From the NCBI GenBank assembly GCA_011959285.1, contig BLLW01000002.1:1-64000 (forward strand): 64,000 nucleotides of DNA, in the 5' to 3' direction. Below are positions 3,397 to 48,063 of the stretch, piece after piece; positions within the stretch are counted from its first letter, which is position 1; each line of letters opens with the position of its first letter. The DNA is from Lachnospiraceae bacterium. Lineage in GTDB: Bacteria > Bacillota > Clostridia > Lachnospirales > Lachnospiraceae. The translations under genes were made by a program, and so were the position numbers. The notes beneath the pieces are model-generated. The model was not told the origin of the DNA, ran no database searches, and saw only the letters and a program-made list of their open reading frames with translations.

Positions 3397-4089
3397 ATGA
3401 CCAACATTTTAGTGTGCGATGATGACAAGGAGATTGTGGATGCCATTGAAATCTATTTGAATCAGGAGGGCTATCAGGTTCATAAAGCCTATGACGGAGA
3501 GCAGGCGATACGGATGCTCAAGGAATTGAATATCCAGCTTCTCATTATTGATATCATGATGCCTAAACTGGACGGTATCCGTGCAACCTTAAAGATCAGG
3601 GAGTACAGCAGTATACCTATCATATTTCTGTCTGCAAAGTCAGAGGATGTGGATAAGATCTTAGGGCTGAACGTGGGAGCAGACGATTATGTGACCAAGC
3701 CTTTTAATCCATTGGAATTGGTGGCAAGAGTCAAGTCAAATTTGCGCAGGTACACTCAGCTTGGGAATTTAAATGTGGAGAACAATGCATTGTTCCAGGC
3801 AGGCGGACTTAGCATCAACGATGACACCAAGGAAGTGACGGTGGACGGGGAGAGCGTCAAACTGACGCCGATTGAGTATAACATTCTTCTTCTTTTGGTC
3901 AAGAATCAGGGAAAGGTATTTTCTATTGATCAGATTTATGAAAACATCTGGAATGAGGAGGCAATCGGGGCGGACAACACCGTTGCAGTCCATATCAGGC
4001 ACATCAGGGAAAAAATTGAGATCAATCCAAAGGAACCCAGATATTTGAAAGTGGTGTGGGGGGTTGGATATAAGATCGAAAAACAGTAG
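3397..4089 (+). CDS. OmpR-family response regulator
   Basis: 230 residues. The receiver domain (about 1-115) has the acidic pocket D8-D10, phospho-acceptor D52 in 'IIDIMMPKLDG' and the conserved 'TKPFNP' lysine. The C-terminal winged helix (about 135-230) has the 'LTPIEYNILLLLVKNQGKVF' core and ends 'VWGVGYKIEK'. It is followed 9 bp later by its cognate histidine kinase. The targets are unknown; the pair is of the VanRS/PhoP-like type common in Lachnospiraceae. Confidence 0.93.
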   Translation: MTNILVCDDDKEIVDAIEIYLNQEGYQVHKAYDGEQAIRMLKELNIQLLIIDIMMPKLDGIRATLKIREYSSIPIIFLSAKSEDVDKILGLNVGADDYVTKPFNPLELVARVKSNLRRYTQLGNLNVENNALFQAGGLSINDDTKEVTVDGESVKLTPIEYNILLLLVKNQGKVFSIDQIYENIWNEEAIGADNTVAVHIRHIREKIEINPKEPRYLKVVWGVGYKIEKQ

Positions 4090-11466: not shown

Positions 11467-12504
11467 ATGGCAAATATGGGAATCATAGGAGCAGGCAGCT
11501 GGGGATGTGCGTTAGCCCTTCTTCTTCATAAAAATGGACACCAGGTTACGGTGTGGTCCATCATGGAAGATGAAATTGAAATGTTAGAGAGAGAGCATGA
11601 ACACAAGGATAAGCTTCCGGGCGTCATTCTTCCAGAACAGATGATGTTTACCACAGATCTTGAGAAGGCTGTCAGCGGAAAGGATGTTCTTGTCATGGCA
11701 GTTCCGTCTCCTTTTACTAGAAGCACATCCGCCCAAATGGCGCCCTTTGTCAAAGACGGTCAAAAAATCATCAATGTTGCCAAGGGAATTGAAGAGTCCA
11801 CGCTTATGACACTTTCAGAAATTATCGAGGAGGAAATTCCGAAGGCAGAGGTGGCAGTGCTTTCAGGTCCTTCCCATGCGGAGGAAGTTGGAAAGGGGCT
11901 TCCCACCACCATCGTTGTGGGAACTAAGGATAAGGAGACGGCAGAGTATCTGCAGAACCTGTTCATGAGCAAGGTGTTCCGTGTCTATACCAGTTCTGAC
12001 GTGATGGGAATCGAATTAGGAGCCGCTCTTAAAAATGTGGTTGCCCTTGCTGCCGGAATGGCAGATGGTCTGGGATATGGGGATAATACCAAGGCAGCCC
12101 TTATTACAAGAGGGATTGCGGAAATCGCCAGATTGGGCATCAGTATGGGAGGCAGGATCGAAACCTTTTATGGGCTTACCGGAATCGGAGATTTGATTGT
12201 TACCTGTGCGTCCATGCATTCCAGGAACCGGCGCGCCGGCATTCTGATCGGAAAGGGTGCATCCATGGAAGAGGCGATGGCGGAAGTGAAAATGGTAGTG
12301 GAAGGCGTTTACTCTGCAAAGGCAGGATATGCGCTGGCACAAAAATATAATGTACCTGTCCCAATCATCGAGCAGGTAAATAAGATTTTATTTGAAGGCA
12401 GATCTGCGAAGGATGCCGTGAGTGAACTGATGCTTAGGGATAAAAAGGTAGAAAATATCGATTTAAGGCAATTGTATCAAAACAGTGTGGAGATACCGTG
12501 GTAG
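11467..12504 (+). CDS. gpsA: NAD(P)-dependent glycerol-3-phosphate dehydrogenase
   Basis: 345 residues, standard length. Reduces dihydroxyacetone phosphate to sn-glycerol 3-phosphate. The N-terminal Rossmann motif 'GAGSWGCALALLL' is clear. The catalytic lysine lies in 'ELGAALKNVVALAAGM', and the substrate-binding segment is 'GLTGIGDLIVTC'. It is co-transcribed with plsY, which uses its product. The order der-plsY-gpsA and the nearby spoIVA match other Firmicutes. Confidence 0.96.
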   Translation: MANMGIIGAGSWGCALALLLHKNGHQVTVWSIMEDEIEMLEREHEHKDKLPGVILPEQMMFTTDLEKAVSGKDVLVMAVPSPFTRSTSAQMAPFVKDGQKIINVAKGIEESTLMTLSEIIEEEIPKAEVAVLSGPSHAEEVGKGLPTTIVVGTKDKETAEYLQNLFMSKVFRVYTSSDVMGIELGAALKNVVALAAGMADGLGYGDNTKAALITRGIAEIARLGISMGGRIETFYGLTGIGDLIVTCASMHSRNRRAGILIGKGASMEEAMAEVKMVVEGVYSAKAGYALAQKYNVPVPIIEQVNKILFEGRSAKDAVSELMLRDKKVENIDLRQLYQNSVEIPW

Positions 12505-16402: not shown

Positions 16403-16432
16403 GTAATAAAAAACAGCCTCTTCACATACATT
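16403..16432 (+). promoter_or_regulatory. Sigma-E-type promoter of spoIVA
   Basis: GTAATAAA (16403-16410), 14-nt spacer, CATACATT (16425-16432). This matches the mother-cell sigma-E pattern (ATA-type -35, CATACA-T -10). spoIVA is a known sigma-E gene in B. subtilis. The predicted start of transcription falls near 16439-16441, which excludes the ATG at 16442 as start codon in favour of 16460. Confidence 0.7.
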
Positions 16433-39810: not shown

Positions 39811-39900
39811 TCAATTTTTACATTTGTCAAATTCTGGGTTAAATGCGTAGAAGTTCTTGGAATCAAGTTTATCCTGTACAATGCGCAATGCTTCGCCGAA
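39811..39900 (-). pseudogene. cotJC: Detached 3' end of cotJC (25 codons plus stop)
   Basis: On the minus strand the frame reads RFGEA, then LRIVQDKLDSKN, FYAFNPEFDKCKN and a stop (39813-39811). This is the typical C-terminal end of CotJC manganese-catalase coat proteins. The missing first 176 codons lie 7 kb away at 46,911-47,438. The two parts share 'TTCGGyGAAGCA'; joining through it restores an unbroken frame with no gained or lost base. No start codon or ribosome binding site precedes this piece. It remains silent unless the element between the halves is removed. Confidence 0.92.
39889..39900 (-). repeat. Left attachment site core of the cotJC element
   Basis: Plus-strand TGCTTCGCCGAA. 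Direct repeat of TGCTTCACCGAA at 46911-46922, one mismatch (39895 G versus 46917 A). Both encode 'FGEA' of CotJC on minus. Confidence 0.85.
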
Positions 39901-39920
39901 ACGGGAGGATTGAAGTAAAT

Positions 39921-40262
39921 TTATCTGTTGATTTTCTGCATTTTCTTTATAATCGACTGCCAATACATGCGGTCTTTCAAGACCCGGATTACCGTAATGG
40001 TGGAATCCTCCACAACAAAGAAGATTAAATATGTACTGTAAGGCTTGAAATAAATGCTCAATCCCTCAATTACATATCCCGTAGCTTCATAGCCTTTGGG
40101 AAAGGAATCCAGCTCTTTGATAGCCTTCTTTATCTTCTTTGAAAAGTTTTCCGCGTATTCTCGATATTTGAAGGTGTCGAGAATATACTTTTTTGTTGAT
40201 TTAATATCTAAAAGCGCGTCCTTGGATATTAAGATTTTATATTTCTTTGGTTTGTCCGGCAT
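39921..40262 (-). CDS. RelE/ParE-family toxin
   Basis: 113 residues. 'KYKILISKDALLDIKSTKKY', 'AIKELDSFPKGY', 'KPYSTYLIFFVVEDSTITVI' and 'RVLKDRMYW' match the RelE/ParE fold. Whether it cuts mRNA (RelE) or poisons gyrase (ParE) cannot be told. The antitoxin stop overlaps its start (TAATG). It ends 20 bp from the left end of the element, so it is element-borne and may punish loss of the element. Confidence 0.85.
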   Translation of the reverse strand: MPDKPKKYKILISKDALLDIKSTKKYILDTFKYREYAENFSKKIKKAIKELDSFPKGYEATGYVIEGLSIYFKPYSTYLIFFVVEDSTITVIRVLKDRMYWQSIIKKMQKINR

Positions 40263-40432
40263 TATATCTTGTCAATTTCCTCCCAAGCTTCATCGAGTGT
40301 ATAAACATCGCCCTTTTTCATACTGTTTATTCCTTTGGAGAGTTCGTCATATAACGCGCCTATGGCTGCTTTTTCGGAATATTCAGTTTTTAGGATTTCC
40401 TGATTTCTGATTGCCCGTGCTGCAGGTGCCAT
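40262..40432 (-). CDS. Antitoxin of the RelE/ParE pair
   Basis: 56 residues starting MAPAARAIRNQEIL and ending 'MKKGDVYTLDEAWEEIDKI'. AAAGGAAG lies before the ATG and the stop overlaps the toxin ATG by one base. Small acidic partner immediately upstream of a RelE/ParE toxin is the standard layout. The short N-terminal region is too short for a full DNA-binding fold to be named with confidence. Confidence 0.75.
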   Translation of the reverse strand: MAPAARAIRNQEILKTEYSEKAAIGALYDELSKGINSMKKGDVYTLDEAWEEIDKI

Positions 40433-40461
40433 AGTATCACTTCCTTTCGATTGTTGATTTT

Positions 40462-40491
40462 ATTATACGGTATTTAGTATTGGTTTATCAA
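40462..40491 (-). promoter_or_regulatory. Sigma-A promoter of the toxin-antitoxin pair
   Basis: On minus, TTGATA (40491-40486), 18-nt spacer, TATAAT (40467-40462), 30 nt before the antitoxin ATG. The 9-bp palindrome ATACsGTAT overlaps the -10, a possible autoregulatory site. Confidence 0.65.
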
Positions 40492-40547
40492 CAGATTTTT
40501 AGTAATTTTCCTCAAAACTGTATGTCTTAGACTTTCATGGTTCATGG

Positions 40548-42056
40548 TTAAATGTTCCAAGTGATTTCAATGTTTCCGTCTGCAATGCGAATAACTTTGA
40601 TGAGCGTATCAACTACCGCCTGTCTGTCATTGAAAGAGAGCGTTTCCCATGTTTTTACATGATTGGTTATCTGCTTCAATCTGCCCTCTGTATCTGTGAC
40701 TTTTGCCGTAATGATTTCTTCCTGCAAGACTTTACGCTCTGCATCCAGTTCTGATATTTTTTCGTCTATGTACTTCATCAGAACGCCGCTTGCCCCGGAC
40801 ACTTTGGAGAGAAGTTCTTCGATTTCTTCCCCAATCTGTGTCAGACGGATTTTTTTCGTCATGTTTGCGTGTTCCTCCCCTGTGTTAGATATACAGGAAA
40901 GTTTCTGAAACTCCGACAGTCTTTCTTTGATTGCACCAAGCATATATTCTTCCAAAACGTCTGCATAAACCGTACAGCCTGCCCCTGTGCAGTTGCTTCC
41001 CCTGCTTCCCGACTGGCTGCAAACAAAGTATCGTCCCCACTTTGTTTTTGCCTTGCGGATTGTCAGAGCATAACCACAGTTGCCGCATTTTACCTTGCCT
41101 ACAAGCCATGAGTTTTTGGGTTTACAGGTCTTTGTGGACTGTCGGTTGTTCAGACACCGTATGCGGCACGCCAACCATGTCTTAGAGGGGATAAAACCCT
41201 TATGCGGCGCAAGCACAATCTCTTTGTTGGACAGGTCACTTTGCTTTCTTGAAGTGGAAACAGTACCTTTGTAGAGATAGCAGGCATTGTAACCCGTGAA
41301 ATCACTTGCCGGATTATAGATGTTTGCACCTTGGCTTTGGAAAAACTGATACACATCAATGTCAGCTTCGACATATACGGGATTACGGAGCATTTCACTG
41401 ATACGGGCGGTGTTCCAGTTTGCACCACGCAGATTTTTAATCTGGTGTTCATTTAAATACCGCACAATATCTCCGAGGGAATTGTCCGTGTCCGCATACA
41501 TGGAGTAAATCAGCTTTAACTGTTCGCTTTCTTCCGGGACTTCCTCATACATGGAAGTGCGGATATTGTCAATGACCGTGTTCGTCAGACGGTAGCCGTA
41601 GGGAATACGCCCACCCATGTAGAAGCCGCGCTTGCACCGTGCATAATAAGCGTCCGTTACCCGCTTTTGTATGGTTTCCCGTTCCAGTTGGGCGAACACG
41701 ATACAGATATTCAACATAGCCCTGCCAATCGGCGTGGACGTATCAAATTTTTCCGTGGAAGAAACAAACTCAACATGATATTTCTGAAATATTTCCATCA
41801 TGTTTGCAAAGTCCAGAATGGAACGGCTGATACGGTCAAGTTTGTAGACAATGACACGCTTTATTTTGCCTGTGCGGATATCATTCATCATATTTTCAAA
41901 GCCGGGACGGTTAGTGTCCTTGCCCGAAAATCCTCTGTCCGTATATTCGATACAGGATTCCCCGTGGGTTTCGTATCTGCAATACTCAAGCTGACTTTCT
42001 ACGGATATGCTGTCCTTTTTTTCGATTGACTGTCTTGCATATAATGCGTCATACAT
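40548..42056 (-). CDS. Large serine recombinase (TnpX/SpoIVCA class)
   Basis: 502 residues. N-terminal resolvase domain with Ser10 in 'LYARQSIEKKDS' as nucleophile and 'VIVYKLDRISRSILDF' and 'TPIGRAMLNICIVFAQLERE' helices. Then a Recombinase domain ('PYGYRLTN'), zinc ribbon 'KCGNCGYALTIRK' with 'CSQSGSRGSNC', and a C-terminal coiled coil (~410-460). Full length, all key residues present. Catalyses site-specific integration and, with a directionality factor, excision; expected to act on the repeats at 39889 and 46911. GGAGGTAGA precedes the ATG. Confidence 0.95.
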   Translation of the reverse strand: MYDALYARQSIEKKDSISVESQLEYCRYETHGESCIEYTDRGFSGKDTNRPGFENMMNDIRTGKIKRVIVYKLDRISRSILDFANMMEIFQKYHVEFVSSTEKFDTSTPIGRAMLNICIVFAQLERETIQKRVTDAYYARCKRGFYMGGRIPYGYRLTNTVIDNIRTSMYEEVPEESEQLKLIYSMYADTDNSLGDIVRYLNEHQIKNLRGANWNTARISEMLRNPVYVEADIDVYQFFQSQGANIYNPASDFTGYNACYLYKGTVSTSRKQSDLSNKEIVLAPHKGFIPSKTWLACRIRCLNNRQSTKTCKPKNSWLVGKVKCGNCGYALTIRKAKTKWGRYFVCSQSGSRGSNCTGAGCTVYADVLEEYMLGAIKERLSEFQKLSCISNTGEEHANMTKKIRLTQIGEEIEELLSKVSGASGVLMKYIDEKISELDAERKVLQEEIITAKVTDTEGRLKQITNHVKTWETLSFNDRQAVVDTLIKVIRIADGNIEITWNI

Positions 42057-42098
42057 TCTATCTACCTCCTAAAACGTAAGACGCATATCCACAAAATG

Positions 42099-42127
42099 AT
42101 CATATCGTTTCCATGATTGTTTTGCAA
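42099..42127 (-). promoter_or_regulatory. Sigma-A promoter of the recombinase
   Basis: On minus, TTGCAA (42127-42122), 17-nt spacer, TATGAT (42104-42099), 43 nt before the recombinase ATG. ACGCATAT occurs twice around it (about 42081 and 42135), possibly operator half-sites. No sporulation-type promoter was seen for the recombinase. Confidence 0.7.
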
Positions 42128-42132
42128 GGGAC

Positions 42133-42312
42133 TTACGCATATTTTTTGAAAATCTGATAGAGCCGCGCTCCGATTTCCTGTCGTGTTTCCTGTTCTGATT
42201 TTTTTTGAAAGGCGGGGTAGATGTTTGTAACGGTCAGCCTCATTTTATCTATGGAAAGACTTTCCATGCGCATTTGAGTATCGGGTGTAGGAGAGTTATT
42301 AGTTTTTGGCAT
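42133..42312 (-). CDS. Small element-encoded protein upstream of the recombinase
   Basis: 59 residues: begins MPKTNNSPTPDTQMRMESLS and ends 'EIGARLYQIFKKYA'. AAAGGAG lies 7 nt before the ATG. Its position, size and basic C-terminus resemble the small TnpW-type proteins near recombinases of clostridial mobile elements. A role as recombination directionality factor is possible but unproven. Too short for routine gene callers. Confidence 0.6.
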   Translation of the reverse strand: MPKTNNSPTPDTQMRMESLSIDKMRLTVTNIYPAFQKKSEQETRQEIGARLYQIFKKYA

Positions 42313-42422
42313 AAACGTTCTCCTTTGACGGTTTCTCTAAATTTTATGAGGAGCGGCAAGTACACTATACGGGAATAGCGTAAACTCCCCCTCTACTACT
42401 TACTACGCACGGGAGGTAAAAA

Positions 42423-42464
42423 ATGGCAAAGTTTTCGGAAAATTTTATAAAAAGTTTAGAATAG
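42423..42464 (+). other. 13-codon ORF with a strong ribosome binding site
   Basis: GGGAGGT then ATG at 42423; reads MAKFSENFIKSLE and stops. It is the only plus-strand reading frame with a good site in the 450-bp gap 42313-42764. Either a leader peptide or the scar of a lost gene. Confidence 0.3.
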
Positions 42465-42480
42465 CTGAATAGCAAGCATA

Positions 42481-42565
42481 GGGATTGAGTACTCAATCCC
42501 AAAAAATTCTATATCCTTTTAAGAAGTGGCGTATAGAATTTTTATTTGTTGGGAAATTCCCCAAC
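42481..42565. repeat. Three consecutive palindromes in the element
   Basis: 42481-42500 is a perfect 20-bp palindrome (GGGATTGAGT and its inverse, no loop). 42502-42513 AAAAATTCTATA is exactly inverted at 42532-42543. GTTGGG (42548-42553) is inverted at 42560-42565. None is followed by a T-run on its hairpin side for a simple terminator. The rest of the gap 42313-42764 shows no other gene I can support. Confidence 0.75.
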
Positions 42566-42722
42566 CCTTACAGGAATATGAATACGGAAAACAAATACAG
42601 ACAGTTAGAACGTGAGCAGGAAGCGTTTTAAGGGCATTTCATGGGCGTTTTGTAGTGCAACAAGGGGAATTACCATTGCCGCCCGAATAAGGGCTTCTAA
42701 ACGTCCACAAGGGCAGAAAAAG

Positions 42723-42764
42723 ACACCGGGAAATGACAATGTATCAATCATCATTCCCCGGTGT
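42723..42764 (-). terminator. Terminator of the MATE-GNAT-MATE-regulator transcript
   Basis: 14-bp stem (42723-42736 with 42751-42764, one mismatch). On minus the hairpin is followed by TCTTTTTC. It lies immediately after the winged-helix stop. Confidence 0.82.
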
Positions 42765-43148
42765 TTATCCGCTGAATTTATAGCCGACACCTAACACGGT
42801 TTTTATGTAGGTCGGGTTTTTGCTGTCCGGCTCTATCTTTTTCCGTAAATTATAAATCACGTTGACAACGCTTGCATGGCAGCTATCGCTGTCCATGTTC
42901 CATACGGTTTCAAAAATTTGTGTCTGTGTAAGGACAATGCCGGGATTGGAAGCAAGGAATACAAGGGTATTATATTCAAGGCGGGTAAGGTTTATTCCCC
43001 CGTTCATAAATACCCGGTGTTGGGTCTGCCTTATTTCCAGTCCCGGAAAAAATAACACGGAAGCGGGTGTAATTTCCATAGGTTCAAGTTGTATATAATC
43101 GGATATTGCCGCTATGATTTTGTCAATTATTTTTTTCTTCCTGTTCAT
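42765..43148 (-). CDS. OmpR-type winged-helix protein without receiver domain
   Basis: 127 residues. 'GINLTRLEYNTLVFLASNPG', 'QIFETVWNMDSDSCHASVV' and 'YIKTVLGVGYKF' form a complete Trans_reg_C DNA-binding domain. The ~120-residue phospho-receiver is missing. Just upstream on minus a GGGAGGT-backed ATG (near 43180) opens a six-codon frame that stops at once, as if a normal response regulator lost its receiver by deletion. Could be a genuine stand-alone regulator of the cassette. Confidence 0.78.
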   Translation of the reverse strand: MNRKKKIIDKIIAAISDYIQLEPMEITPASVLFFPGLEIRQTQHRVFMNGGINLTRLEYNTLVFLASNPGIVLTQTQIFETVWNMDSDSCHASVVNVIYNLRKKIEPDSKNPTYIKTVLGVGYKFSG

Positions 43149-43205
43149 TAAGTGTCAGCAATAATATTTTCCCATGTTACCACCTCCCGGTATGCGGTTG
43201 TCTTT

Positions 43206-44537
43206 CTAATTACATTTTATTGTTCTGTGATAAATAAAAAATGAAATAATTGCGGTAATAAATTCAGCCACCCAAAAAGCATTCCATACGCCGACTGCGC
43301 CAAAAAGTTTGCTAAACAAAAATGCGGACGGAATGATAATGATAATATAACGGCATAGAGAAATAATTAATGACGGCATACCCTTTCCTAATCCCTCTAA
43401 CGCACCTGATGAGGTTACAGAAATAGCTGAAACAAGAAAGCCTGCGCTAATAACACGGAGTGCAATTTCCCCAGTATGAATTGTTTCCGGCACATGAGTA
43501 AACAGGTTTATTAGTTGACCGGGAATGAGCAAACAAATAATAGTGCCTAAAACCATAATTACGCTACTCATGCAAAGAACAATATTATAAATTTCCTTAA
43601 CACGCTTTTGTTCACCAGCTCCATAATTATAACCAATTAAAGGGCGCATTCCTTGAATGATACCATTAGCAGGAAGATATAGGAAAGTCTGCAATTTATA
43701 ATAAATTCCTAAAACTAAAATATATACCTCTGAATATGAGGACAGAATGGAATTTAGCGCTGAAATTAAAACAGATGGCAAAGCCATATTTAAAGTTGCG
43801 GGTATACCAACAAAATACAGTTTGAAAGCTGTTTCTTTATCAAAAGTAAGAAATTGTCTGCTAATGTGAATACGAATAGGGCGTACAAAGTAGATAACTA
43901 AATAGATAGCAAGCGTTATTGCCTGTCCAATGCCGGTTGCCAATGCTGCTCCCTCTATTCCCATTGCAGGGAAAAAACCAATCCCAAAAATAAGCACTGG
44001 ATCTAAGATAATATTTGCGATACACCCACACATCATACTTATCATGGTTACTTTCATATTACCTACGGCTTGGAATATTTTTTCAAATGTTCCGCCTAGA
44101 ATAATGATAAAAGTAAAAGAAAACGCTATAACAGAATATCGAATACCAAAATCAATAACGGGTTCTGATGATGTAAATACTCTTAAAAAAGTTGGAATAA
44201 TAGAAATTACACTAACTGTAATAACTATACTATGTATAATAGCAAATACCATGCCTTGTGTAGCTGCCATATTTGCCCTTGAATATTCTTCTGTACCCAA
44301 ATAAAAAGCTATTGCTGCGTTAATTCCTATGGCAAAGCCAATAGCAACAGCATTGATAAAATTCTGAACAGGAAAGACTAATGACAATGCCGTCATAGCG
44401 TCCTCACTAATTTGGGCTACAAAAAAGCTATCGACAATGTTATATAAAGAATTTACCAACATTGAGAGTACCATAGGAAGTGACATTGATAAAATTAACG
44501 ACAATACAGGTTTTTCTTTCATAAATTTTTCGTCCAT
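43206..44537 (-). CDS. MATE-family efflux transporter 1
   Basis: 443 residues with 12 hydrophobic segments in two repeats. Typical MATE signals are 'LSLILSMSLPMVLSMLVNSL' at the start and 'FGIGFFPAMGIEGAALATGI'. Exports cationic drugs or metabolites using a Na+ or H+ gradient. GGGAGGAG precedes the ATG. Third gene of the cassette behind the attenuated promoter. Codon use is AT-rich compared with chromosomal genes. Confidence 0.92.
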   Translation of the reverse strand: MDEKFMKEKPVLSLILSMSLPMVLSMLVNSLYNIVDSFFVAQISEDAMTALSLVFPVQNFINAVAIGFAIGINAAIAFYLGTEEYSRANMAATQGMVFAIIHSIVITVSVISIIPTFLRVFTSSEPVIDFGIRYSVIAFSFTFIIILGGTFEKIFQAVGNMKVTMISMMCGCIANIILDPVLIFGIGFFPAMGIEGAALATGIGQAITLAIYLVIYFVRPIRIHISRQFLTFDKETAFKLYFVGIPATLNMALPSVLISALNSILSSYSEVYILVLGIYYKLQTFLYLPANGIIQGMRPLIGYNYGAGEQKRVKEIYNIVLCMSSVIMVLGTIICLLIPGQLINLFTHVPETIHTGEIALRVISAGFLVSAISVTSSGALEGLGKGMPSLIISLCRYIIIIIPSAFLFSKLFGAVGVWNAFWVAEFITAIISFFIYHRTIKCN

Positions 44538-44579
44538 TTTAACTCCTCCCTTAATTTGCGAACATAAAAAAACGTGTAT

Positions 44580-44987
44580 TTATTTGTTCGTCATAAAGCA
44601 AATAGGATTTTTTGTAAAACCAAAAGGCTCATAAAATTTTTCTGCATTTTCGGTTATCAGCATTCCTAACAATGGTTTTAAATCTTCATTTTCCGTAATT
44701 GTTTTAAGAAGCTGCCTGCCTATACCTTTATTACGAAATTCTTTTTTAACAACTACATCACAAATGTAAAAATGCGTTGCATAATCAGTAATCACTCTGG
44801 CAAATCCAACTTGTTGTCTGTTTTTTGTAAATGCACCATAGCAGATTGAATTATTTAATGATTTGATGATAGTCTCTTTTTTTCGCTCTTTCGCCCATAC
44901 AGTTTGCCTTAAAAGATTTACTACTTCTTTTTGGGACATATTTTCAACCCCCGTTTTAATTGTAATAGATGTATCTTCCTTGTACAT
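44580..44987 (-). CDS. GNAT-family N-acetyltransferase
   Basis: 135 residues. The acetyl-CoA loop is 'VKKEFRNKGIGRQLLKTI' (RxxGxG), preceded by 'GFARVITDYATHFYICDVVV' and ending 'YEPFGFTKNP', a normal GNAT fold. GGAGGT lies 8 nt before the ATG. It starts 2 bp after one MATE gene and another MATE follows, suggesting acetylation and export of related compounds; substrate unknown. Confidence 0.88.
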   Translation of the reverse strand: MYKEDTSITIKTGVENMSQKEVVNLLRQTVWAKERKKETIIKSLNNSICYGAFTKNRQQVGFARVITDYATHFYICDVVVKKEFRNKGIGRQLLKTITENEDLKPLLGMLITENAEKFYEPFGFTKNPICFMTNK

Positions 44988-44989
44988 TT

Positions 44990-46351
44990 TTATTTACCTC
45001 CAACTATCTCTTTATTATTATTTTGAAACCTCAATCTCAAAAATAGAATGACTGCTACAACAAACGTCAATAATTCAGTAACTGGAAATGCAATCCATAT
45101 ACCATTGATTAGTAATGCTTTTTCTAAAATCCACATAATAGGTATCAAAAAAAACATCTGTCTAAATATTTGTATCATAATGCTTGACAACACTCTTTCA
45201 ATCGCTTGCATATAAGTCGAAATCATTGTAGAAAGCCCACAAAACAAATAACCTGCTGCCATAATCCGCATTGCAATAATCCCATAAGAACGCATTTTTT
45301 CCGAAGCCATAAACAAACTCAAAATCTGTGTCGGAAACAGCATGATAATTAATGTCCCAAACATCATTAGAGAAGTTACTAAAATTGTACTGTATCGAAA
45401 AACTGATTGAAGCCTTTTTAAATTTCCTGCTCCATAATTAAATCGCATAATGGGCAAACAGCCTTGTATTAATCCATTAATAGTCATAATAATTAACTGC
45501 TGTATTTTAAAATATGCTCCAAAAAAAGCAATGCTCGTATCTGAATATGCGACTAAAAACAGATTTACAATCGTTACGGTAAAAGCGTTTAGGGCATTCA
45601 TAATAAAAGAAGGCAGACCTAAAATAACTATTTTTTGTACAATGCTCCATTCAAACCGAAATCCAACTGTTTTAAGTGCTATTTTATGTTTTGCTTTTAA
45701 AAACATAATAAATGCCAAAACCATTGAAACAGAATATCCCAAAACTGTTGCCGTAGAAGCTCCTTTAATACCCATTGCCGGGAAAAAACCTATTCCAAAA
45801 ATAAGAAGCGGGTCAAAAATGAAATTGGTTATAACACCCGTCAGTTGAAACAACATGGGTTCAATCATGTTTCCAGTTGCCTGTATCATTTTTTGAATAA
45901 CGATATGAACCATGTTTGGTATCTGCATAAAAGAACAAACACCCATATACTCCATACACAAAGTATAAATATCGTTATTTTCAGTAAACGATTTGAAGTA
46001 TGGGGATATAATTAGTAATACCGTTATATTTAAAATAATGCCAACCAAAAAGGAAAGAATCAGTCCAAGAGTAAACGTTTTATTTGCTTCCTCTTGTTCA
46101 CGTTTTCCAAGATGTCCCGCAATTAGGACATTGATACCAACCCCAATCCAAATAGATACCGCATTCATTAATGTTGTGATTGGAAAAGACAGAGAAACAG
46201 CCGTTAATGCGTTCTCACTTAACCGGGCGACAAAAGCACTGTCTAACAAATTGTATGAATATTGAAGAAACATGGAAAATAGTGGCGGTAATGACATTTC
46301 AAAAATCAGCTTTCCAACTGGCATAACTGCCATTTTATTTTCAGCCATCAT
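44990..46351 (-). CDS. MATE-family efflux transporter 2
   Basis: 453 residues, 12 hydrophobic segments. 'KLIFEMSLPPLFSMFLQYSY' and 'GIGFFPAMGIKGASTATVLG' are MATE signals. It is a diverged homologue of the other MATE in the cassette, sharing the 'FGIGFFPAMGI' block. First structural gene after the promoter (46485-46513) and attenuator hairpin. Two tandem ATGs (46351 and 46348) follow GGAGG; the second has the better 7-nt spacing. Confidence 0.92.
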   Translation of the reverse strand: MMAENKMAVMPVGKLIFEMSLPPLFSMFLQYSYNLLDSAFVARLSENALTAVSLSFPITTLMNAVSIWIGVGINVLIAGHLGKREQEEANKTFTLGLILSFLVGIILNITVLLIISPYFKSFTENNDIYTLCMEYMGVCSFMQIPNMVHIVIQKMIQATGNMIEPMLFQLTGVITNFIFDPLLIFGIGFFPAMGIKGASTATVLGYSVSMVLAFIMFLKAKHKIALKTVGFRFEWSIVQKIVILGLPSFIMNALNAFTVTIVNLFLVAYSDTSIAFFGAYFKIQQLIIMTINGLIQGCLPIMRFNYGAGNLKRLQSVFRYSTILVTSLMMFGTLIIMLFPTQILSLFMASEKMRSYGIIAMRIMAAGYLFCGLSTMISTYMQAIERVLSSIMIQIFRQMFFLIPIMWILEKALLINGIWIAFPVTELLTFVVAVILFLRLRFQNNNKEIVGGK

Positions 46352-46445
46352 ATATCCTCCAAAATTTGATAAACATTTTCCGAATTATAACAACAAAAAG
46401 CCACACAGTTATCAAACTGATAACTGTGTGGCAAAAAGATGACAT
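46341..46445 (-). other. Possible leader ORF spanning the attenuator
   Basis: 34 codons from the ATG at 46445 (begins MSSFCHTVISLITVWLF), reading through the whole hairpin and ending 11 bp inside the MATE 2 start. Mostly hydrophobic. The ribosome binding site is weak. A ribosome translating or stalling here would open the terminator hairpin, as in drug-inducible leaders. Confidence 0.35.
46395..46432 (-). terminator. Attenuator-type terminator in the MATE 2 leader
   Basis: Perfect 15-bp stem (46400-46414 with 46418-46432) and 3-nt loop. On minus it is followed by TTTTT (46399-46395). It lies between the promoter and the MATE 2 start, 44 nt from the ATG, so it would stop transcription before the cassette unless disrupted. 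Confidence 0.85.
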
Positions 46446-46484
46446 ATCAATCCGGAAAAGTCCACTCAAAATTTTCTTTAAAAA

Positions 46485-46513
46485 AGTATAAGGAAATTTT
46501 TTTTGCTTGTCAA
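46485..46513 (-). promoter_or_regulatory. Near-consensus sigma-A promoter of the efflux cassette
   Basis: On minus, TTGACA (46513-46508), 17-nt spacer, TATACT (46490-46485). Confidence 0.85.
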
Positions 46514-46538
46514 TAGTTTTTTAGAAATGTTAAGTTTA

Positions 46539-46691
46539 ATGAAAATGCAAAAAGAATATATAAATATTACTTCATATCTTCAGCAGGCAGAAACACAAGC
46601 ACGGCAAATTCTTCTTTATGCCTTTCACAGACTATCAACGCCAAACAGCCAAGTCAAGGACGTAAACGCCGCTAAAGCGGTAAATCCTTGA
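46539..46691 (+). CDS. Small ORF near the right end of the element (doubtful)
   Basis: 50 codons beginning MKMQKEYINITSYLQQAETQ. The first ~35 residues look protein-like (amphipathic helices), but the ribosome binding site is poor and the 3' third lies inside a large inverted repeat. May be a truncated element gene. The rest of the gap from here to the right end (46696-46910) shows nothing I can assign. Confidence 0.25.
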   Translation: MKMQKEYINITSYLQQAETQARQILLYAFHRLSTPNSQVKDVNAAKAVNP

Positions 46692-46695
46692 CTTG
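46650..46695. repeat. 46-bp nested inverted repeat
   Basis: CAAGTCAAGGA (46650-46660) pairs perfectly with TCCTTGACTTG (46685-46695). Inside, CCGC TAAA GCGG (46669-46680) is a second small hairpin. About 215 bp from the right end of the element; no T-run follows. Confidence 0.75.
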
Positions 46696-46862
46696 ACTGT
46701 CTGTTATTGATAAAGGGTAATTAAGGCATAAATGAATATCTGTGTTGTAGCAACCTCTTTTCCTTTCCATTTCCTTCATGCGATAGGGAAAAACCAAGCT
46801 TGTCCTTTCTTTTGGGGCGAAAGCTGAAGTCCACAGCTTTGAGGGGCGTGTGGGTATGCGTC

Positions 46863-47438
46863 TTAGTGATTATATTGTGCGTGTTCCGATTTACTGCAAT
46901 CTTCCCGGTTTGCTTCACCGAATCTTTGAAAGTGAACGATTTCACGGGCACGCAGGAACCGGATGGGATCACAGACATCACTGTCGTGAACCAGACGTAG
47001 GATATTGTCGTAAGTAGTGCGGGCTTTTTGCTCTGCTGCCATATCTTCAAACAAATCCGTGATTGCATCCCCCTTCGATTGAAATTCACAGCTGTTAAAA
47101 GGAATTCCCCCTGCCGCCATAGGCCAGATGCCAACGGTATGGTCAACGTAATAGTTGGCAAAACCAGATGCTTCAATTTCTTCCATGGATAGATTCTTTG
47201 TCAGCTGGTGGACAATGGTTGATACCATTTCAAGGTGTGCTAATTCCTCTGTTCCAATATCCGTCAATATGGCAGCAACCTCATTATACGGCATGGAATA
47301 CCGCTGTGAAATATACCGCATGGAAGCTCCCAATTCCCCATCAGGACCGCCATACTGCGACATGATAGCCTGAGCAATCTTAGCATTTGGCTCTTTGATA
47401 TTAACGGGAAACTGTAATCTTTTCTCATAACTCCACAT
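46863..47438 (-). CDS. cotJC: CotJC manganese-catalase-type coat protein, interrupted
   Basis: As it stands, 191 residues, of which the first 176 (to 'HFQRFGEA') are CotJC and the last 15 come from element sequence. Mn-catalase ligands are visible in 'DIGTEELAHLEMV' (E, H) and 'AREIVHFQRFGEA' (E, H). 'PMAAGGIPFNSCEFQ' is a CotJC hallmark. The true C-terminal 25 residues are at 39811-39888. Third gene of cotJA-cotJB-cotJC. CotJ proteins sit in the spore coat and are made in the mother cell. Whether the chimeric tail is tolerated is unknown. Confidence 0.93.
   Translation of the reverse strand: MWSYEKRLQFPVNIKEPNAKIAQAIMSQYGGPDGELGASMRYISQRYSMPYNEVAAILTDIGTEELAHLEMVSTIVHQLTKNLSMEEIEASGFANYYVDHTVGIWPMAAGGIPFNSCEFQSKGDAITDLFEDMAAEQKARTTYDNILRLVHDSDVCDPIRFLRAREIVHFQRFGEANREDCSKSEHAQYNH
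46911..46922 (-). repeat. Right attachment site core of the cotJC element
   Basis: Plus-strand TGCTTCACCGAA, direct repeat of 39889-39900 with one mismatch. Confidence 0.85.
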
Positions 47439-47441
47439 AAA

Positions 47442-47714
47442 CTAACATCCTCCTTCCCAAGGCCAGGGCTGGGTCGCCCATTTCCATTCATCTTGGTTGC
47501 AGCCGTCTGCGTCAGATATTCTAAGAGGACCGTATTTTGCGGCGTATTCCCTCATAGCTTGATTTTTCATGCGGACATAGTGGCTTAAATATTCAATGGC
47601 TTCTTTGTCTGTCGGATGGGTGTCTAGGTATTCATTCATTTCTACGATAACAAAATCGATTACGCCGATATCATGGAACAGTCTGCGCTGCTCACTGTTA
47701 TTTGTGTTCGTCAT
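47442..47714 (-). CDS. cotJB: Spore coat protein CotJB
   Basis: 90 residues. 'IVEMNEYLDTHPTDKEAIEY', 'AKYGPLRISDA' and the Trp-rich end 'WKWATQPWPWEGGC' are typical of CotJB. The start at 47714 overlaps the cotJA stop by ATGA and has AAGGAG 9 nt upstream; the ATG at 47723 is too close to that site. CotJB is needed for coat incorporation of CotJC in B. subtilis. Confidence 0.93.
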   Translation of the reverse strand: MTNTNNSEQRRLFHDIGVIDFVIVEMNEYLDTHPTDKEAIEYLSHYVRMKNQAMREYAAKYGPLRISDADGCNQDEWKWATQPWPWEGGC

Positions 47715-47881
47715 TTTACGCATCTCCTTCCTGTAAAAGGTTTTTCCAGTTCGGGGAATATTGTACCTGCTTTATATGCCTCATCCAGATTTTCAAAGAC
47801 ATTGGTAAGATGCTGCCAAGGGACATAGGCCATTGCAATGGGAAAACGATCAAAATATTCGTTAAAACTGTAATCCTGCAT
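47711..47881 (-). CDS. cotJA: Spore coat associated protein CotJA
   Basis: 56 residues beginning MQDYSFNEYFDRFPIAMAYV. 'PWQHLTNVFENLDEAYKAGT' and 'FPELEKPFTGRR' are the CotJA signature. AGGAG lies 4 nt before the ATG. First gene of the operon. Earlier in-frame starts have no ribosome binding site. Confidence 0.93.
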   Translation of the reverse strand: MQDYSFNEYFDRFPIAMAYVPWQHLTNVFENLDEAYKAGTIFPELEKPFTGRRCVK

Positions 47882-47917: not shown

Positions 47918-47944
47918 TATAGTATGATAGGAAAAATTTCGGGT
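47918..47944 (-). promoter_or_regulatory. Mother-cell (sigma-K/E-type) promoter of the cotJ operon
   Basis: On minus, AC (47944-47943), 16-nt spacer, CATACTATA (47926-47918), an exact match to the sigma-K -10 CATAnnnTA. The -10 also differs from the sigma-E form by one base; cotJ is sigma-E-dependent in B. subtilis. Confidence 0.55.
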
Positions 47945-48063
47945 TCCGATTAAACACAAACTTTTCACACTTTTTTTTCATTTTTAACACAATTTGGAAT
48001 TAAATTATTAAAAGAAATTTAAGCGCTTTAAATGCAATTTTATGAAAAAGGAGGAATGCAGTC

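Follow-up and report, generated by a model that had tools for sequence, protein, structure and literature searches.

What becomes of a spore-coat gene that an element has cut in two? The question is raised by a 64,000-nt stretch of a Lachnospiraceae bacterium genome (GCA_011959285.1, contig BLLW01000002.1, positions 1 to 64,000; hereafter the window), in which the sporulation-specific gene cotJC is interrupted by an element encoding a large serine recombinase, with a repeat-to-repeat distance of 7,022 bp. Our answer, to which we give a probability of about 0.78, is that the element is predicted to be cut from the mother-cell chromosome during sporulation by its own recombinase, together with a likely 59-aa recombination directionality factor (RDF) encoded behind a predicted sigma-E promoter, giving a CotJC of 201 residues.

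An earlier reading made from the letters of this DNA (the sequence-only reading) had proposed that a serine-recombinase element splits cotJC and leaves both halves intact, and this is what the locus contains (Table 1). The coordinates that it gave for the two halves are right, the 12-bp direct repeat that it saw at both ends is present with one mismatch, and joining the halves at this core reproduced the claimed 201 residues with the frame kept. The recombinase that it described as complete is a 502-aa open reading frame (ORF) with all three expected Pfam domains and, at its N terminus, the motif YARQS (read by eye), which we take to be the active-site motif of a serine recombinase. Without splicing, the frame of the N-terminal half (N half) extends over 15 codons of element sequence, yielding a 191-aa ORF (46863–47438).

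The two cotJC ends share the core TTCGG[T/C]GAAGCA on the minus strand and differ at one base. Inverted 22-nt arms (ATTTACTTCAATCCTCCCGTTT and ATTTACTGCAATCTTCCCGGTT) are centred on the repeats in the layout of a phage-type attachment site (attP), and the observed split goes beyond chance. Third codon positions flanking the crossover behave in opposite ways across related loci: that of the preceding Gly codon varies among N-side copies and is mostly T in C-side copies, and that of the Ala codon is mostly A in N-side copies and varies among C-side copies. Such a pattern fits a crossover between them, probably at the GA within the Glu codon of FGEA. In three relatives (L055, L056, and L008), the right arm is the same and terminates in TTTCGGTGAA, beyond which the DNA is not cotJC; the elements either inserted off target with an identical breakpoint or lie on misassembled contigs. 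Their breakpoints, at 3418, 3151, and about 11640, respectively, have the same core. Two of the three are on contigs labelled Spirochaetales and Mailhella, which may reflect transfer or misbinned or misassembled contigs.

A search of GTDB genomes with the recombinase returned 94 relatives, of which 80 were kept as loci. The C-terminal half (C half) of cotJC lies downstream of the recombinase in 70 of the 80, each time open to a stop 20–54 codons on, and in L077 it lies inverted on the other side, bringing the loci with a flanking C half to 71. Five loci (L025, L035, L049, L057, and L071) have the N half only, and four have no cotJC piece detectable by profile: the three off-target loci and L021, whose sequence ends about 800 bp past the recombinase. 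In L071, the right arm is partly present at 11509 and the frame downstream is not CotJC-like, a possible decayed split copy. Where both halves are available, rejoining is in frame in 29 of 31 loci; the two misses are L019, for which a wrong N match was picked, and L045, which has a variant core. An assembly error was considered and ruled out, as the junction recurs in many genomes that are independent of one another, among them the named and presumably cultured strains A4 (L013), 14-2 (L070), 28-4 (L076), and Parablautia muri (L016), and as complementary halves often share a contig and strand (counted below).

Interruption of cotJC extends across the family. The joined protein was searched against 397 family genomes, 243 of which gave a match, and the 113 with a weaker or partial best match were searched again. 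By the halves found, 77 genomes have complementary cotJC pieces at one or more of four positions: site A near codon 30 (29 genomes), B near 65 (34), C near 135 (15), and D near 176 (11). This number is a floor, with the remaining 130 matching genomes, the window's included, outside the re-examination. In twelve genomes cotJC is split at two of these positions, a full-length copy is absent from 62 of the 77, and in 49 of the 77 the complementary halves lie on one contig and strand (hand count). The rest of the 113 comprise 19 with full-length copies only and 17 that could not be classed. Gaps between pieces on the same contig range from 1.6 to 118 kb, and cotJC is present in three collinear pieces in G409 (over 43 kb) and G410 (over 15 kb). 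Forty regions were fetched for sites A to D. At 35% identity, the distinct recombinases cluster by site: one cluster of 83 (74 D, 9 undetermined), one of 13 (12 A, 1 unclassed), one of 9 (8 C, 1 labelled D), and three of 9, 7, and 1 that are all site B. Each of the four codons is used by its own recombinase families.

No second intact cotJC that could mask the split was found in the host genome of the window. Its other Mn_catalase matches (contig C10) belong only to a distant 183-aa protein, and of the two CotJC matches counted, the N half alone is itemised and the second is taken as the C half. Among 20 carrier genomes searched from those of the 80 loci, 19 have no full-length CotJC elsewhere, and G416 has one. 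The host genome has the outfit of a spore former, because genes for sigma-E, SpoIIID, SpoIIIAA, and SpoIVA (the last inside the window) are present along with a sigma-K-like gene, which is a single reading frame scoring below the family cut-off (280.9 vs 298.65 bits).

The sequence-only reading had suggested a search of relatives for the joined gene, and this search bore it out. Against G264, the only same-genus genome in the sample, the joined flanks align ungapped over 201 bp at 82.6% identity, and 29 intact CotJC proteins of other genomes in the family are continuous across FGE. The cotJC of G264 is uninterrupted at the window's site and split at another codon. This site-C element (L186, 4380–8542) has one whole and one broken recombinase copy, each near a sigma-E-type motif. 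The same insertion as in the window is present in G403 (the genome of L005), whose host flanks are 82–84% identical. The cotJC halves differ there at 56 of 516 and 6 of 78 positions; in the N half the proportion of differing synonymous sites (pS) is 0.44 and that of nonsynonymous sites (pN) 0.015, and in the C half 7 differences are synonymous and none is nonsynonymous. Identity is 99.7% over the element's right half taken together with the cotJC C half. At the left end of the element 1 of 551 positions differs, and at the right end there are no differences from 39890 to 40299, those at 40300 being end gaps, while core base 39889 differs. The middle of the element (43303–46348) lies outside the G403 contigs compared. 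Because divergence begins at the cores and the element is near-identical in diverged hosts, transfer was recent: the element entered both genomes recently and separately, or passed from one to the other.

Selection on the halves is best seen in the clade of L066, L067, and L069, which shares an insertion and has collinear elements of 92–95% identity. The N half shows 29–37 synonymous against 1–3 nonsynonymous differences (pS 0.25–0.32), and the C half 2–6 synonymous against none. With the recombinase pS of 0.16–0.21 as a clock, about 8–11 nonsynonymous changes would be expected in a neutral C half of 51 nonsynonymous sites. Both halves are therefore under strong purifying selection in this clade, from which it follows that the joined CotJC is probably made. 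Overall, the ratio of nonsynonymous to synonymous divergence (dN/dS) is similar in split and intact copies.

A small ORF, mostly of 54–71 aa, lies by the recombinase in 75 of the 80 loci; four of the misses are contig ends, and L077 lacks it. The window's copy has no Pfam family match, and the named ones among the 120 listed small-ORF profile matches are hypothetical proteins. Upstream of it, the block ATAGTGTACTTGC...CATAAAAT is kept in L072 and L073, where protein identity is 25–30%. Of 76 sequences upstream of small ORFs, the window's among them and 74 of them exceeding 60 bp, 69 contain the sigma-E-type signature ATA-N16-18-CATANNNT, where 0.016 would be expected per 110 bp; as the sequences are related to one another, the events are not independent. 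We also counted by distinct recombinase, with L187 and L031, L193 and L067, and L190 and L077 being the same loci, L085 being the window, and L004/window and L053/L055 being identical in recombinase DNA only. On this count the motif occurs no more than 450 bp upstream of the recombinase in 62 of the 67 distinct sequences from site D (random windows, 4–10%); the figure is 6 of 8 for site C, 8 of 9 for those of undetermined site, and 0 of 1 for the unclassed sequence. In the host genome, spoIVA and spoIIID have this signature in front of them, as does spoIIIAA with a 15-nt spacer; all three are sigma-E genes. At the cotJ operon, NACN-N14-17-CATANNNTA, a motif of the sigma-K consensus type, occurs in 38 of 64 distinct sequences (window included) vs 0.16 per 900 bp. 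A sigma-E-type promoter of this operon was rejected, as it is found within 900 bp in 5 of 64 loci (background 0.1) and is not the rule; the sigma-K type fits better. Following the −35 ATA, ATANNGTAC[AA/TT]G is common to site-D and some site-C promoters (L186, L187, and L220), whose small ORFs differ; it is perhaps a SpoIIID-type site.

The sequence-only reading had inferred developmental excision. We still infer it, and it is now better founded, because of the purifying selection, the sigma-E-type match before the small ORF, and the sigma-K-type match at the cotJ operon. Three findings go beyond that reading: a family of elements with this att site, horizontal movement of the element, and the use of three further cotJC codons by other recombinase families. 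In the proposed mechanism, the recombinase would be made from a sigma-A-like promoter in growing cells and, alone, would integrate. Sigma-E would then produce the 59-aa protein in the mother cell only, turning the reaction to excision; crossover at the GA of the Glu codon would restore cotJC and release a circle, and sigma-K would next transcribe cotJABC. The predicted order, with RDF early, then excision, then the coat gene late, would be that of C. difficile skin. The spore would retain the integrated copy, so that the element is inherited at little cost, since cotJC would be used only in the doomed mother cell.

Several observations weigh against mother-cell excision, and some of them favour a plain mobile element that uses conserved cotJC as its attB under no developmental control, the carriers losing CotJC, this loss being tolerated, and the halves being intact through youth. 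Horizontal movement is frequent and recent, and synonymous divergence is lower in the recombinase than in cotJC in 90% of 325 pairs, which means that transfer is common and that many insertions, the window's included, are young; intact halves in young insertions prove little alone. In the clade with the shared insertion, too, the recombinase pS is somewhat below that of cotJC. The promoter match before the recombinase is of vegetative type, three related elements lie outside cotJC, and L071 has an N half and no recognisable C half. C. difficile mutants of the cotJC homologue have less catalase and no significant coat defect, as cited in the available part of PMC11222575. Such an element would, however, leave unexplained the selection on both halves in the clade of L066, L067, and L069, with no nonsynonymous change in its C half, as well as the sigma-E-type match before the small ORF and the near-absence of other full-length copies from the carriers searched, and we consider it unlikely. 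Other points concern the factor and the promoters. It is position and promoter that mark the 59-aa protein as the likely RDF; its AlphaFold2 model is poor, with a predicted local distance difference test (pLDDT) score of 68, and gives no PDB match better than E 9.9. Seven of the 76 upstream sequences, two of them too short, lack the sigma-E-type motif, which is also found at 4 of 17 distinct site-B and 0 of 12 site-A recombinases and was rejected as a universal mark. All promoters described here are consensus matches in related sequences, not transcripts.

The attP pattern has no match in IMG/VR or in any of the 397 family genomes, growing-cell assemblies being such that they need not show attP, and neither an excised junction nor a circle was seen in the assemblies. 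While this counts against mother-cell excision, it also speaks against excision that is constitutive or stress-driven and leaky, producing a mixed population not tied to the mother cell. The sigma-A-like match before the recombinase would suit leaky excision, as would yin, whose excised form was reported at all time points in the available text of PMC10747680. The sigma-E-type block before the small ORF, on the other hand, is strongly conserved and resembles the spoIVA and spoIIID promoters of the same genome, and we judge leaky excision to be unlikely, slightly more so than the uncontrolled element. Very improbable, in our view, is that the element end supplies a new C terminus and that the truncated 191-residue CotJC is the working product. 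The frame of the N half does continue into the element over a number of codons, frequently reading EANREDCSKSEH or something close to it, but the tail from the core varies from 6 to 51 codons over 29 loci and ends in EANRAE, EANRAG, or EANRVR in the clade of L047, L066, L067, and L069. Nor would a truncated product explain the conservation of the separated C half right up to its stop codon. Excision in the mother cell thus remains our preferred explanation.

Table 1. Features of the split cotJC locus and of its element in the window
Feature	Position	Strand	Basis
cotJC 5′ half, codons 1–176, Mn_catalase domain	47438–46911	minus	ORF list, Pfam, joining
cotJC 3′ half, final 25 codons and stop	39888–39811	minus	ORF list, joining
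att core, N side, TTCGGTGAAGCA on minus (TGCTTCACCGAA)	46911..46922	minus	repeat comparison
att core, C side, TTCGGCGAAGCA on minus (TGCTTCGCCGAA)	39889..39900	minus	repeat comparison
Element arm, half of attP; inverted repeat of 39899–39920	46889..46910	minus	arms compared by eye
Element arm, other attP half	39901..39920	minus	arms compared by eye
Large serine recombinase, 502 aa: Resolvase (PF00239), Recombinase (PF07508), Zn_ribbon_recom (PF13408)	40548..42056	minus	Pfam
Conserved small ORF, 59 aa, candidate RDF	42133..42312	minus	relatives in 75/80 loci
Sigma-E-type promoter match before small ORF, ATA-N17-CATAAAAT	42341..42368	minus	motif scan, same-genome controls
Sigma-A-like promoter match before recombinase, TTGCAA-N17-TATGAT	42099..42127	minus	by eye, no control
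Sigma-K-type promoter match of cotJ operon, AACC-N15-CATACTATA	47918..47945	minus	motif scan
Sigma-E-type promoter match of spoIVA, same-window positive control	16406..16432	plus	motif scan
cotJA, first gene of the operon	47711..47881	minus	ORF list, start inferred
cotJB, directly upstream of cotJC	47442..47723	minus	ORF list
ParE-type toxin of toxin–antitoxin pair	39921..40262	minus	PF05016, 3.5e-09
56-aa ORF before parE, probable antitoxin	40262..40432	minus	position alone, no Pfam match
Winged-helix Trans_reg_C protein, cargo	42765..43148	minus	Pfam
MATE transporter, cargo	43206..44537	minus	Pfam
GNAT acetyltransferase, cargo	44580..44987	minus	Pfam
Second MATE transporter, cargo	44990..46351	minus	Pfam

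Six of the eight element proteins match Pfam (the toxin, the recombinase, the winged-helix protein, two MATE transporters, and the GNAT protein) and two small ORFs do not; none is a phage gene by Pfam, PHROGs not having been searched. The block of parE and the 56-aa ORF (39921–40432) lies between the recombinase and the right att site, where several relatives (L006, L010) have only about 65 bp, and it resembles an optional module for retention. The sequence TAAGACGCATAYCCACA is present in inverted copies at 42077–42093, in the recombinase leader, and at 46849–46865, inside the left end of the element; with up to two mismatches, it occurs on 18 of the 35 N sides and in 28 of the 76 leaders of recombinases vs 0.3% of random windows. 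Elsewhere in the host genome, three large serine recombinases are found in tandem (G000:C33:15703-19378).

Our comparisons with published systems hold for the available parts of the papers cited. By analogy, the cotJC element would work like the known skin, SP-beta, gin, and yin kind, with its RDF and mother-cell promoter predicted. In C. difficile skin, which interrupts sigK, CD1231 is sigma-A-driven and CD1234 (sigma-E and SpoIIID) confines excision to the mother cell (PMC5025042); likewise, a sporulation gene is split in frame here, with a sigma-A-type promoter match before the recombinase and a sigma-E-type match before a small gene (the RDF in skin, predicted here). Unlike skin, the present element targets a coat gene rather than a sigma factor, is 7 kb with MATE, GNAT, and toxin–antitoxin cargo, and moves between species, and its 59-aa ORF, a candidate RDF, matches no named family. 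It shares with gin, in gerE of Bacillus cereus ATCC10987, a non-phage nature, a mother-cell gene as target, and a serine recombinase, GirC with its partner GirX in gin (PMC5595907); gin, however, is 28.6 kb with three serine recombinase genes, whereas one recombinase, another gene, and another host family are involved here. As with SP-beta (spsM, SprA/SprB, Bacillus subtilis), a spore-envelope gene would be rebuilt by serine-recombinase excision (PMC4191935), but SP-beta is an active prophage, unlike this element with no phage gene by Pfam. Interrupted genes also include spsM, spoVFB, spoVR, and yabG (PMC4191935, PMC10747680). While the yin (yabG, Clostridium botulinum), vfbin (spoVFB), and vrin (spoVR) elements likewise intervene in sporulation genes, each is described as one element in one gene; cotJC is struck at four codons by several recombinase families and lies in up to three pieces. 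The phi027 prophage of C. difficile R20291 also adjoins a cotJC homologue, CDR20291_1465, described as a 678-bp gene downstream of attR and not as split (PMC11222575). In the literature searched, with most subscription journals outside it, sporulation-gene elements are single cases in Bacillus, Geobacillus, and Clostridium, and no paper on a cotJC-interrupting element or on multi-site splitting was found among those listed.

Across at least 77 of the 243 family genomes with a CotJC match, one coat gene is split at four codons, and the recombinase families involved are separate. It seems somewhat more likely than not that cotJC is, in the Lachnospiraceae, a developmentally DNA-spliced gene, with separate recombinase families each dedicated to one of four codons (about 30, 65, 135, and 176), a shared harbour for elements of 1.6–118 kb, and up to three pieces that independent excisions rejoin in the mother cell. 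The question of why mobile elements occupy mother-cell genes becomes open to a comparative test, in which interruptions of one gene have several origins and relatives with an intact copy serve as controls. If our interpretation is true, annotation would wrongly call many spore formers cotJC-defective, and the loci would offer a collection of recombinases together with their natural att sites and with candidates for the directionality factors.

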